A stretch of DNA of 64,000 bases from the NCBI RefSeq assembly GCF_007829525.1, contig NZ_VLJP01000078.1:44124-108123 (forward strand). The letters run 5' to 3'. Origin of the DNA: Mesorhizobium sp. J18 (GTDB taxonomy: Bacteria; Pseudomonadota; Alphaproteobacteria; Rhizobiales; Rhizobiaceae). Below are positions 22,311 through 55,558 of the stretch, piece by piece (within the stretch, counting starts at the first letter, position 1; every line of letters begins with the position of its first letter). Under the pieces are notes generated by a model, which was not told the DNA's origin, did not search any database, and saw only the letters and a program-made list of their open reading frames with translations. Position numbers and translations under genes: made by a program.

Positions 22311-22961
22311 TCACAATCGGAACGGTGCGAAGGTCATCCGATGGAGGCGGGTGATCGGGCCATGTTCCACAATGGCGCTGCGATGCCGCTCGGTGGCGTA
22401 GCCCACATGGGTTTCGAAACCGTAGTGCGGATTGACTGTGGCGCTGCGCATCATCATGCGGTCGCGGGTCACCTTGGCGACTATGGAAGCGGCGGCAATC
22501 GACTGGGAACGCTGGTCCCCCTTCACCACCGCGCGCGCGGCGCAGGGCAGGCCGGGAGGGATGTCGCGCCCGTCGGCCAGCGCAAAGGCGGGCTGCACGC
22601 AAAGCCCGCGCAGCGCCCGCCGCATGGCCTCAAGGCTTGCCCTGAGGATGTCCGACCTGTCGATGGAAGAGGCCGAAACCGACGCAACCGAGACGGCTAC
22701 GGCCGTATTGAAGATCGCGGAATACAGCATCTCGCGCGTCTCGGGCGGCATCCGCTTGGAATCATCGAGGCCGTCAGGAATGCGCTCCGGATCGAGTATG
22801 ACCGCGGCGGCCACGACGGGGCCGGCAAGCGGCCCGCGGCCCGCCTCGTCCAACCCTGCGACCGGCGCCAGACCGTCACGGATGACAGCCCTCTCGAGGG
22901 TGAAATCCGGCCGCACCGGAATATCGAAAAGAAGTGGAGAATCGGTCTGCGTGCGAGCCAT
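22311..22961 (-). CDS. rnhB: Ribonuclease HII
   Basis: Endonuclease that removes RNA from RNA-DNA hybrids and single ribonucleotides from DNA. The 216-residue protein has the family signature [12 protein letters not shown] (Asp38, Glu39), DDSKRM, the third acidic residue in ALADGRDIP and the motif [15 protein letters not shown]. Length is normal for type 2 RNase H. It lies downstream of the SplB-like radical SAM gene on the same strand, 152 bp away, and may share its SOS-linked promoter. Converges with atpF. Confidence 0.97.
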
Positions 22962-23113
22962 GATGCGGCGATGCTCGCATCGCGACCGATTCTCCGCAAG
23001 TCCTTCCCGACGTCATGGGTTTACGTCAGGGAAGTCTCCGTCGGCATCGCAGGGGACGGGCGGCCGAACGGAATTCCTTGGCTATCCGCCATCGGGAAGC
23101 GGACATGCCTTTG

Positions 23114-24268
23114 TCACAGAAGCACGAGTTGCTCTCCGCCTCCGGACGGGGCTTTGAAGAGATCATTGCGCAGCTTGCGTCTTTCGGTATTGAAGCCGAT
23201 CCGCCGCGCTGCGATCTCGAAGCGGCGGCCGATCTGCCAGGCATAGGGGCCGGTGCCCTTCATGCGCTTGCCCCATTCCGAATCATAATCCTTGCCGCCG
23301 CGCATCGACCGCACCAGCGTCATGACGTGGCGGTAGCGGTCCGGAAAATGCCGCAGTAGCCAGTCCTTGAAGATCGGGCTGACCTCCAGCGGCAGGCGCA
23401 GGATGATGTAGCCTGCCTCGCGCGCGCCGGCCGCATAGGCCGATTCCAGGATGCGTTCGATCTCATGGTCCGTCAGCCCGGGAATGACGGGGCCGATCAT
23501 GACCGAGACCGAAACGCCGGCATCGCTCAACGCTCGCATGGCTTCCAGCCGCCTCGGCGGTGTGGCCGCGCGCGGCTCCATGGTCCGCGCCACCTTGCGG
23601 TCGAGCGTCGTCACCGAAAGCGCGACCTTGGCGAGACCCTGCTCGGCCATGCGCGAGAGAATGTCGATATCGCGCATCACCAGGGCCGATTTGGTGACGA
23701 TCCCGACCGGATGCCTGTATTTTTCGAGCACTTCCAGGATCTCGCGCATGATGCGATATTGCCGCTCGATTGGCTGATACGGGTCCGTATTGGTGCCGAT
23801 GGCTATGGTCTGCGGCTGATAGCCGTCCTTCGACAGTTCACGTTCCAGAAGAGCGGCCGCATCCGGCTTGGCGAACAGCTTCGATTCGAAGTCGAGGCCC
23901 GGCGAAAGGCCCATATAGGCATGGGTCGGGCGCGCGAAGCAGTAGACACAGCCGTGTTCGCAGCCGCGATAGGGATTGATGGAGCGGTCGAAGGAAATGT
24001 CGGGAGATTCGTTGCGCGTTATGATCCGGCGCGGCTTCTCGACCTGAACCTCGGTCTTGAAGGGCGGCAGTTCCTCCAGCGAGTTCCAGCCGTCGTCGAA
24101 GATGTGCCTTGAAACCGGCTCGAAGCGGCCCGAAGGATTGATTCCGGCCGCGCGGCCCCTGCGCCGGTCGAAACCGATGCGAATGCCGCTTTCCTCTATG
24201 ACTGCATTGGCCATCGTCGCGCCTCCGCCTTTGAAGGCGGCAACGTCTGCGCGGCTGATCTGTTCCAT
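23114..24268 (-). CDS. SplB-like radical SAM protein (PA0069 family)
   Basis: Radical S-adenosylmethionine protein related to spore photoproduct lyase (COG1533, DNA-repair photolyase-like) and of the PA0069 family. The iron-sulphur cluster motif CEHGCVYC gives Cys103, Cys107 and Cys110 (CX3CX2C). Other landmarks are NPYRGCEHG, IAIGTNTDPYQPIERQ and VTKSALVMRDIDIL. True function is unknown; repair of DNA damage is inferred. The divergent region upstream holds a LexA-type box (24346-24360). Start may be 24268 (weak GGAG) or ATG 24214, which has GGAGGCG 7 bases upstream; the longer form is given. Confidence 0.85.
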   Translation of the reverse strand: MEQISRADVAAFKGGGATMANAVIEESGIRIGFDRRRGRAAGINPSGRFEPVSRHIFDDGWNSLEELPPFKTEVQVEKPRRIITRNESPDISFDRSINPYRGCEHGCVYCFARPTHAYMGLSPGLDFESKLFAKPDAAALLERELSKDGYQPQTIAIGTNTDPYQPIERQYRIMREILEVLEKYRHPVGIVTKSALVMRDIDILSRMAEQGLAKVALSVTTLDRKVARTMEPRAATPPRRLEAMRALSDAGVSVSVMIGPVIPGLTDHEIERILESAYAAGAREAGYIILRLPLEVSPIFKDWLLRHFPDRYRHVMTLVRSMRGGKDYDSEWGKRMKGTGPYAWQIGRRFEIAARRIGFNTERRKLRNDLFKAPSGGGEQLVLL

Positions 24269-24345
24269 GTTCCGGTCTCCATAAGCCGGGTTCAGCGTGA
24301 GGCGAATCGCGCCTCAAGATGAATCTATTCCTATCCATCAAATGA

Positions 24346-24360
24346 GAACAAATCAAGAAC
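24346..24360. promoter_or_regulatory. LexA-binding SOS box, alphaproteobacterial type
   Basis: GAAC-AAATCAA-GAAC, i.e. GTTC-N7-GTTC on the minus strand, which is the established LexA site of alphaproteobacteria. It lies 78 bp upstream of the SplB-like gene and 72 bp upstream of the proposed start of the small glycosyltransferase. The match is exact and sits in an AT-rich promoter-like stretch. LexA control of the SplB-like gene, rather than of the glycosyltransferase, is the more likely reading. Confidence 0.72.
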
Positions 24361-24431
24361 TTTTGCACCTGCCACAGGTGCTGCATCGCACAACTGGCGC
24401 TCGGCTCCGCTTTCGTTTATTGGCTAACCAA

Positions 24432-24959
24432 ATGCTCAGTGTCCTGATAGAGACTTGCAACCATGAGGAGGAGCTGGCGAGGACATTGGCCTCGCTCGTG
24501 GGCGGCGCCGTTGAGGGCGTCGTGCGCGAGGTAATCGTCTGCGACACCGGTTCCACCGACAATACGCATCTGGTCGCCGAACATGCCGGCTGCCGCTATG
24601 TCGCCGAGGGCGGGATCGGCACGGCCTTGCGCCAGGCAAAGGGTGAATGGCTTGCGCTGCTGGAGCCTGGCGCCCGGCTCTGCGACGGCTGGATGGACGG
24701 CGTGCTTGACCATGTGGCGCGCTCGACCGCGCCGGCATGCTTCACGCGCTCGAAGCAGGGCAGGGCAAAATTCCTGGTACGTGTCTTTTCCGCCAAGCGA
24801 CCCTTGGCTGACGGACTCCTGATAACGAAGCGGCAAGCGGCAGCGCTGGTACAGAAGGCCAGGCACGCCGACGACATCGCCCGCGGACTGGCCATGAAGC
24901 GGCTGGACGGGGAAATTTTCGTTGCCGGCCGGCCGGCGGCCACTTCTCAGCGGAAGTGA
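24432..24959 (+). CDS. Small family-2 glycosyltransferase-like protein
   Basis: A 175-residue protein beginning [23 protein letters not shown], a nucleotide-sugar-binding start typical of GT-A glycosyltransferases, followed by [25 protein letters not shown]. The usual DXD motif is not seen where expected, and the protein is shorter than most family members (over 220), so it may be a single-domain relative without activity, or act on an unknown substrate. A longer frame starts at 24297, but ATG 24432 begins at the conserved region. The next gene, coaX, begins 25 bp later, so they are likely cotranscribed. Confidence 0.7.
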
Positions 24960-54637: not shown

Positions 54638-55558
54638 ATGAGCTTCTTTCCCGGACCTGACCCGCTGCCCGGTGATGCCTTCGCCTGCGACGCCATCGAG
54701 ACGCTGATCATTCCGCGCGCCAGCGATATCGGCGGCTTCGAGGTGCGCCGGGCTCTGCCCTCGTCGCGTCGCCGCCTCGTCGGCCCCTTCATATTCTTCG
54801 ACCGCATGGGCCCAGCCGTGCTGCGCGCCGGCCAGGGGCTGGACGTGCGGCCACACCCGCATATCGGCCTGTCCACGGTCACCTATCTGTTCGACGGCAA
54901 GATCCGCCATCGCGATTCGCTCGGCACGGAAATGGTCATCGAACCGGGCGACCTGAACCTGATGACGGCGGGCAGGGGCATCGTGCATTCCGAGCGCTCG
55001 CCGGAAGAATTGCGCGGCTCGCCCATGTCTGTTTCCGGGCTGCAGACCTGGCTGGCGCTGCCCGACGGCGGCGAAGAGGTCGATCCGGTATTCGAGAACA
55101 CCTCGCGAACAGTCATGCCCGAAATCGACGACGGCGGCGTCAAGGCGCGCGTGGTCATAGGCAATCTGGACGGTGCACGCTCGCCGGTGCGCACGCCGAC
55201 CGACACGCTCTATGCCGACATCCGCCTGGGAGCGGGCGCACAGTTCCGTATCCCGGCCGAGGCCGAGGAGCGTGCGATCTATGTGCTGGAAGGCCATGTG
55301 GAGATCGCCGGCGATCGCTTCCCTGCCGACAGGCTCCTGGTCTTCCGCCCGGGCGACGAGATCGTCGTGCGGTCGGAGGCGGGCGCGCATTTCATGCTTT
55401 TCGGCGGCGCGGCGCTCGGGTCGCAGCGCTACATATGGTGGAATTTCGTCTCTTCCTCGAAGGAGCGCATCGAACAGGCCAAGGAGGAATGGCGAACCGG
55501 CCACTTCGATATCGTGCCGGGCGACGAGGAAGAGTTCATTCCCCTGCCGGAGGGATGA
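54638..55558 (+). CDS. Pirin-family protein
   Basis: Iron-binding cupin of 306 residues; bacterial pirins such as YhhW have quercetinase activity, others bind and regulate enzymes. The metal site is in the N-terminal cupin: His73 and His75 in RPHPHIGLST, His117 and Glu119 in IVHSERS. The C-terminal cupin (GHVEIAGDRFPADRLLVF and so on) is of the usual type. ATG 54638 follows AAAGGAACCGCG. It lies between the vapC remnant and dxs and is likely an insertion into the xseB-dxs unit. Confidence 0.92.
   Translation: MSFFPGPDPLPGDAFACDAIETLIIPRASDIGGFEVRRALPSSRRRLVGPFIFFDRMGPAVLRAGQGLDVRPHPHIGLSTVTYLFDGKIRHRDSLGTEMVIEPGDLNLMTAGRGIVHSERSPEELRGSPMSVSGLQTWLALPDGGEEVDPVFENTSRTVMPEIDDGGVKARVVIGNLDGARSPVRTPTDTLYADIRLGAGAQFRIPAEAEERAIYVLEGHVEIAGDRFPADRLLVFRPGDEIVVRSEAGAHFMLFGGAALGSQRYIWWNFVSSSKERIEQAKEEWRTGHFDIVPGDEEEFIPLPEG

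Follow-up and report, generated by a model that had tools for sequence, protein, structure and literature searches.

Does LexA control a relative of spore photoproduct lyase (SPL) in bacteria that form no spores, and if so, would its product repair the same lesion? We followed this question in a stretch of 64,000 nucleotides from the alphaproteobacterium Mesorhizobium sp. J18, referred to as the window. There, a LexA box with GAACAAATCAAGAAC as its plus-strand letters (24346-24360) sits in the 163-base gap between two divergent start codons, that of a radical SAM gene (24268, minus strand) and that of a glycosyltransferase-like ORF (24432, plus strand; Table 1). The original prediction had placed a GTTC-N7-GTTC box at exactly this position, in the divergent promoter region of a PA0069-type radical SAM gene with rnhB downstream on the same strand, and our analysis agrees on each of these points. 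The encoded protein matches the PA0069-family model NF033668 over profile positions 1-348 of 348 with 581.9 bits (cut-off 360). The gene has a second possible ATG at 24214; many of the 80 named orthologues described below align across residues 1-384 of the window protein.

Table 1 Features of the radical SAM locus. Positions refer to the window; the last column names the evidence for each assignment.
Feature	Position	Strand	Basis
Conserved element GGACTTGCGGAGAAT between radical SAM gene and rnhB	22989-23003	-	
rnhB (ribonuclease HII), 152 nt past the radical SAM stop	22311-22961	-	NF000595, 224.9 bits
PA0069-family radical SAM protein, 384 aa	23114-24268	-	NF033668, PF04055
Putative -10 TAGGAA, 17 nt from the -35	24328-24333	-	Sequence; spacing kept in family
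Putative -35 TTGATT, within the LexA box	24351-24356	-	Sequence; TTG spacer kept in family
LexA box (SOS box) GTTC-TTGATTT-GTTC	24346-24360	-	Exact match and orthologue conservation
Glycosyltransferase-family-2-like ORF, divergent	24432-24959	+	PF00535, 32.3 bits

Conservation of the box in Alphaproteobacteria

Exact matches to GTTC-N7-GTTC are common. The window holds two, with 1.57 expected, and 46 stretches with at most one mismatch, with 41.9 expected. The whole genome contains 123 exact boxes compared to 82 matches of the reversed pattern, and 37 compared to 15 for the control when the stricter GTTC-N6-T-GTTC is used. The window's other exact match (55096-55110) is located within an ORF (54638-55558) that is presumably pirin-like, and is most likely due to chance. 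A motif match by itself is weak evidence, no better than chance. Since the motif alone is insufficient, we judge the site to be real because it is conserved upstream of the orthologues.

Orthologues were located by the motif C-x-[HY]-G-C-x-Y-C, which makes the invariance of those residues partly a matter of construction, and for each gene we scanned the region that begins 600 or 700 nt and ends 60 nt 5' of the first cluster-cysteine codon. We examined 70 of the 114 genomes that were positive in the family sample, 69 of the 118 that exceeded the cut-off in the sample of the class and each of the 39 that did so outside the class. A further set of named records comprised the best 80 of at least 596 stretches and is biased to close relatives; nearly all of its records are titled Alphaproteobacteria, and two are titled just 'Proteobacteria bacterium'. 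A pseudogene (L104) and L239 were left out, and three genes were present twice (L254/L066, L278/L111, L319/L129), which leaves 215 distinct class orthologues from 218.

The exact box was found upstream of 201 of these 215 orthologues and the reversed pattern upstream of three. Conservation upstream of orthologues was one of the checks to which the original prediction had tied its claim, and the claim withstands it. Box and reversed control were found in 66 and 0 of 69 loci of the same family, 28 and 0 of 29 of the class, 34 and 1 of 40 in a further class set and 76 and 2 of 80 among the named records. Other spacings were rare in the named set (N5 1, N6 3, N8 0 and N9 5 of 80), and first-order Markov resamples of the 80 upstream regions contained the box in 1.9%. 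Most of the 14 loci without an exact box (L060, L105, L112, L145, L161, L168, L172, L179, L181, L183, L291, L302, L317, L318) carry a one-base variant at a similar place; L105 stops at a contig edge.

The radical SAM gene and its box are both retained in a Bartonella (L292) which we take to be a bee gut bacterium. Caulobacter vibrioides matches in the control panel of the class survey, which does not give its status relative to the cut-off. Within the same family, a genome of 1.5 Mb contains a decayed PA0069-type gene (G110:C2:50376-51362) with five TGA, one TAG and two TAA codons inside, and the gene had no match in the six other genomes below 2 Mb of the family sample, nor in one that is 68% complete.

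Promoter geometry and target of the box

The spacer of the box is constrained as well. In most loci, the first GTTC is followed by TTG, and 51 of the 66 family loci have a TAGGAA-like -10 element at a distance of exactly 17 nt from TTGNNN; beyond the family, the -10 is far less conserved. Bound to the predicted site, LexA would cover the -35 of the radical SAM promoter.

Given how common exact matches are, and with the box only 72-86 nt from the ATG of the glycosyltransferase-like gene, one might suspect a chance occurrence or a site that serves this divergent neighbour. However, a chance origin is ruled out by the conservation in 201 of 215 orthologues. Of 218 loci, 202 have the box on the strand that is sense for the radical SAM gene and two have it exclusively on the opposite strand, and the -10 geometry is directed at the radical SAM gene. 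Furthermore, a glycosyltransferase homologue was detected in 49 of the 80 named loci, and the box is retained in 28 of the 31 loci in which none was detected. Orientation and these latter loci rule out control of the glycosyltransferase gene by the box; the divergent ORF is not its conserved target. We give next to no credence to this explanation in either form, and regard control of the radical SAM gene by LexA, as judged from the sequence evidence, as very likely.

Downstream, an rnhB homologue is present in 66 of the 80 named loci, some of which end too early to show it. It is possible that rnhB is co-transcribed with the radical SAM gene, yet a conserved promoter-like element, GGACTTGCGGAGAAT, lies between both. 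Allowing up to two mismatches, we found this element in 33 of 110 loci; CGG follows directly after it, so that a GANTC site is contained. Possibly, it represents rnhB's own promoter.

A different LexA motif outside the class

The outside-class set covers the other classes of the phylum and is not split into beta and gamma. The alpha box was found in none of its 37 orthologues, and 27 of them carry CTGT-N8-ACAG, compared to 0, 0, 1 and 1 of 37 for four control patterns. Two more loci (L213, L234), which were left out of the 37-gene count because their cluster motif reads CEHAC, contain CTGT-N8-ACAG as well, giving 29 of 39 in total. Among the ten loci without it, L204 has the palindrome TTAGTAATAATACTAA, presumably the Xanthomonad LexA palindrome, 288-289 nt upstream of the cluster-cysteine codon, and this looks like a third LexA motif. 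The remaining nine show none of the alpha box, CTGT-N8-ACAG and the TTAGTAATAATACTAA palindrome. By eye, we noticed a TGAGAC followed by a GCGTA-like stretch near the start codon in L202, L206, L211 and L212, which have no recognised LexA site.

The switch of the LexA motif between classes joins conservation, orientation and the overlap with the -35, and together they bear out the original reading of the box as a LexA site for the radical SAM gene.

SOS regulon context

The genome carries lexA, and boxes adjoin lexA itself, uvrA, ssb, ruvA, a YifB/ComM-like gene and an imuA-like gene, the last with 53.7 bits under a cut-off of 150. This survey covered 17 of the 37 GTTC-N6-T-GTTC boxes and 20 nearby ORFs. 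Five of these ORFs encode a gamma-glutamyltransferase, a RecD2-like helicase, a D-Ala-D-Ala carboxypeptidase, a glutamate racemase and a cytosine methylase, and nine of the 20 had no family match at the threshold used. With GTTC-N7-GTTC conserved in its promoter, and with lexA and other SOS genes carrying the same box, the radical SAM gene has the features of an alphaproteobacterial LexA regulon member.

Across 240 genomes of the class, the radical SAM gene was found above the cut-off in 118 and lexA in 202, in 181 of them over its cut-off. Both occur together in 115 of the 118 genomes, and the radical SAM gene is present in three of the 38 genomes without detected lexA. This co-occurrence is weak support because the genomes without lexA are mostly small, which confounds it with genome size.

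Family and predicted fold of the radical SAM protein

The window protein matches PF04055 (radical SAM) with 76.5 bits and carries the CxxxCxxC motif as C103-E-H-G-C107-V-Y-C110. The cluster cysteines are present in all 256 proteins compared, partly by construction, as the search used the motif. The next closest curated family is that of the Rv2578c-family radical SAM proteins (NF038135; 228 bits, under its cut-off of 430). Radical SAM mobile pair protein B (TIGR04470) is also related, at 103.6 bits far under the 410-bit cut-off, and its mobile pair partner is not among the three scanned neighbours, namely rnhB, the glycosyltransferase-like gene and coaX.

In the predicted structure, a moderate model (pLDDT 72.9, pTM 0.75), the fold appears to be of the SPL type. 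Foldseek places SPL at ranks 1 to 5, and the structural match to SPL has a Z score of 18.5 with an rmsd of 3.4 over 267 residues, compared to a Z of 14.5 for the next family. The protein thus resembles SplB (TIGR04070; PDB 4FHC) in its fold, in the CxxxCxYC cluster motif and in a C-terminal half that is homologous to SPL relatives. Profile comparison with three SPL relatives located this homology at residues 182-303 (probability 84%, E 7e-6).

At the sequence level, the similarity to SPL appears remote. TIGR04070 scores 13.7 bits on the window protein (E 0.022; cut-off 400), behind the MoaA, TrsS, Mmp10 and Elp3 models. On two other PA0069 members, it gave 21.5 bits, above MoaA, for L200 and no listed match for L130. 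A search of the PDB with two family profiles did not find SPL by sequence, while an alphaproteobacterial SPL relative does retrieve it from the same PDB set. Because the fold search ranks SPL first, we take this null result to mean only that the similarity lies below the reach of the method.

The closest folds after SPL include lipoyl synthase and NifB, and the radical SAM superfamily is functionally very diverse. It may therefore be asked whether the gene is LexA-regulated, but its product acts on something other than DNA in the damage response, e.g. a tRNA, a protein or a compound of the nucleotide pool. However, the top match, SPL, repairs DNA and exceeds the next family by about 4 Z units, and LexA control under different motifs is also seen for repair and translesion genes. 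We consider such a substrate rather unlikely and infer that the enzyme acts on DNA.

Catalytic residues compared with SPL

SPL uses an intrinsic cysteine as H-atom donor, C141 in Bacillus subtilis and C140 in Geobacillus thermodenitrificans, and Y99 serves as its radical-relay tyrosine. The whole window protein contains three cysteines, all of which belong to the cluster, and among the 255 other PA0069-family proteins together with that of the window, only the cluster cysteines are conserved. In counts that start at the family model (about residue 37) and leave out the N-terminus, the cluster cysteines are the only ones in 107 of the 218 class members; 91 such members remain when up to 40 upstream open-frame residues are added. 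Outside the class, all 37 proteins contain four to eight cysteines, i.e. one to five beyond the cluster, most commonly at position 152 (42 after the third cluster cysteine; 17 of 37) and at position 368 (17 of 37). In neither set is any non-cluster cysteine shared by half of the proteins.

The residue after the third cluster cysteine, which we take from the SPL cluster numbering to be the Tyr99 position, is F111 in the window protein. At this position, 208 of the 256 proteins have Phe and 48 have Tyr, with 19 Phe and 18 Tyr among the 37 outside the class. Unlike SplB, the PA0069 family thus has no conserved H-donor cysteine and has mostly Phe at the Tyr99 position. As hhalign did not reliably align the stretch around SPL's cysteine, our statement on the missing donor rests on cysteine counts and conservation. 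By eye, SCYTDP of an SPL relative lies opposite GTNTDP at 158-163, which would put Thr159 at the place of the cysteine, and Cys is not among the commonest residues at this position in the PA0069 family. The missing-residue argument appears firm for the class and weaker outside it because of the extra cysteines in all 37 proteins and the Tyr in 18 of them.

The enzyme might nevertheless be a true spore-photoproduct-type lyase at work in vegetative cells, in which another residue or a relocated cysteine replaces Cys141. The literature on 'splB' and photoreactivation under SOS control implies this, and the best structural neighbour, the distant profile homology and the Tyr before the third cluster cysteine, for which the search motif selected, would agree with it. 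L200, one of three members tested, ranks TIGR04070 above MoaA, at just 21.5 bits. The extra cysteines in 37 of 37 outside-class proteins would offer candidates for a relocated donor, and a precedent appears in a report that Clostridium acetobutylicum SPL uses a cysteine at another place (PMC5368176). However, a relocated cysteine is impossible in the class members that have no non-cluster cysteine (107 of 218, or 91 with the added N-terminal frame), and non-cluster cysteines stay below half in both sets. The predominance of Phe over Tyr at the Tyr99 position, the 13.7 bits for TIGR04070 compared to a cut-off of 400 and the failure of two family profiles to find SPL in the PDB by sequence, where a true relative does, argue against it as well, as does the Bartonella that keeps both gene and box. 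We regard a true lyase of this type as improbable, and spore-photoproduct repair by the known mechanism as unlikely. Our preferred reading is a different lesion.

SPL relatives in one genus

Seven SPL relatives (L329-L335) were found in one genus of the same order. TIGR04070 gave about 254-282 bits for three full-length proteins, under its cut-off, and about 110 bits for four weaker ones; L332, the one of these four compared with TIGR03886 (spore photoproduct lyase family), scores 624 bits for that model. The cluster reads YCY in all seven, with an additional Cys at +52 in the three closest. In the five genomes that contain both kinds of gene, the LexA box is present at the PA0069-type gene in five of five, one of them as far as 610 nt from the cysteine codon, and at none of the seven SPL relatives. 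In this small sample of one genus, SOS control thus seems to go with the PA0069-type family rather than with SPL itself. Together with the missing conserved donor cysteine, the Phe at the Tyr99 position and the TIGR04070 score far below its cut-off, this weakens the original suggestion that the protein repairs a UV lesion in the manner of SPL.

Relation to earlier work on SOS-regulated splB

In its passages on splB, the study by Sanchez-Alberola et al. 2012 (PMC3323433) predicted SOS control of this gene in alpha- and beta-Proteobacteria, noted two divergent LexA motifs for it and presented this as the first evidence for a photoreactivation enzyme under SOS regulation. Vibrio LexA was used in the gel shifts that these passages report. 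The alpha set of that study includes Agrobacterium, Sinorhizobium, Brucella, Ochrobactrum, Paracoccus and Rhodobacter. The splB described in these passages shares with our locus the alpha LexA motif, an SPL-like gene and the SOS prediction, and presumably belongs to the same gene family. The study differs in its set of species with multiple chromosomes and in calling the enzyme a photolyase, whereas the catalytic residues of SPL are missing here. The trait is described there as not seen in the gamma set, and our outside-class set is not divisible into beta and gamma for comparison.

According to the relevant passages of further papers, a 2021 Bacteroidetes study treats splB/COG1533 as an SOS gene (PMC8565304), Aravind et al. 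2013 place SplB-like radical SAM proteins in SOS networks (PMC3765255) and a LexA target table of Streptomyces venezuelae includes a radical SAM gene (PMC9380542). The Gram-positive core SOS regulon of a 2020 comparative study also includes a radical SAM protein (PMC7739468), and this protein may be of the Rv2578c family. Neither a radical SAM gene nor splB or a photolyase gene is named in the main texts of LexA studies in Caulobacter (PMC12700426) and Dinoroseobacter (PMC6473078). SOS control of this gene had thus been predicted before, and our analysis adds breadth to it: the gene is an already known SOS gene whose switch is conserved, and its 'photolyase' label is doubtful. The point of the missing Cys and Tyr was not met in those parts of the SOS and splB literature that our search, which was not aimed at it, brought up, and we make no claim that it is unpublished.

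Proposed mechanism

We propose that LexA binds the GTTC-N7-GTTC box, which holds the -35 of the radical SAM gene, and would thereby keep the gene switched off. DNA damage would lead to RecA filaments and self-cleavage of LexA, upon which the radical SAM gene would be transcribed. Its product, a radical SAM enzyme of SPL-like fold whose [4Fe-4S] cluster would be held by C103, C107 and C110, most probably uses 5'-deoxyadenosyl-radical chemistry to remove or convert a damaged base or nucleotide. Because there is no internal cysteine donor of the SPL type and no Tyr99, the reaction would have to be closed in another way, for example by direct return of hydrogen from 5'-deoxyadenosine, by consumption of SAM or by an external donor. 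For the same reason, the lesion on which the enzyme acts is probably not the spore photoproduct but a different one. As a whole, the statement that a LexA-controlled enzyme of SPL fold carries out SOS-induced radical repair of another lesion seems to us fairly probable.

Implications

It may be speculated that this SOS enzyme of SPL fold has lost, or never had, the Cys/Tyr relay and performs a new radical repair of a common, light-independent lesion in non-sporing bacteria, with LexA control kept through a wholesale change of motif between classes; we put this forward tentatively, with slightly less than even confidence. As damage control of the radical SAM gene is kept by two very different LexA motifs in one phylum, the gene probably belongs to the core SOS functions. 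With the catalytic Cys and Tyr missing, the published label of a photoreactivation enzyme is not to be trusted, and the missing residues make one question testable, namely on which lesion the PA0069-type enzyme acts.
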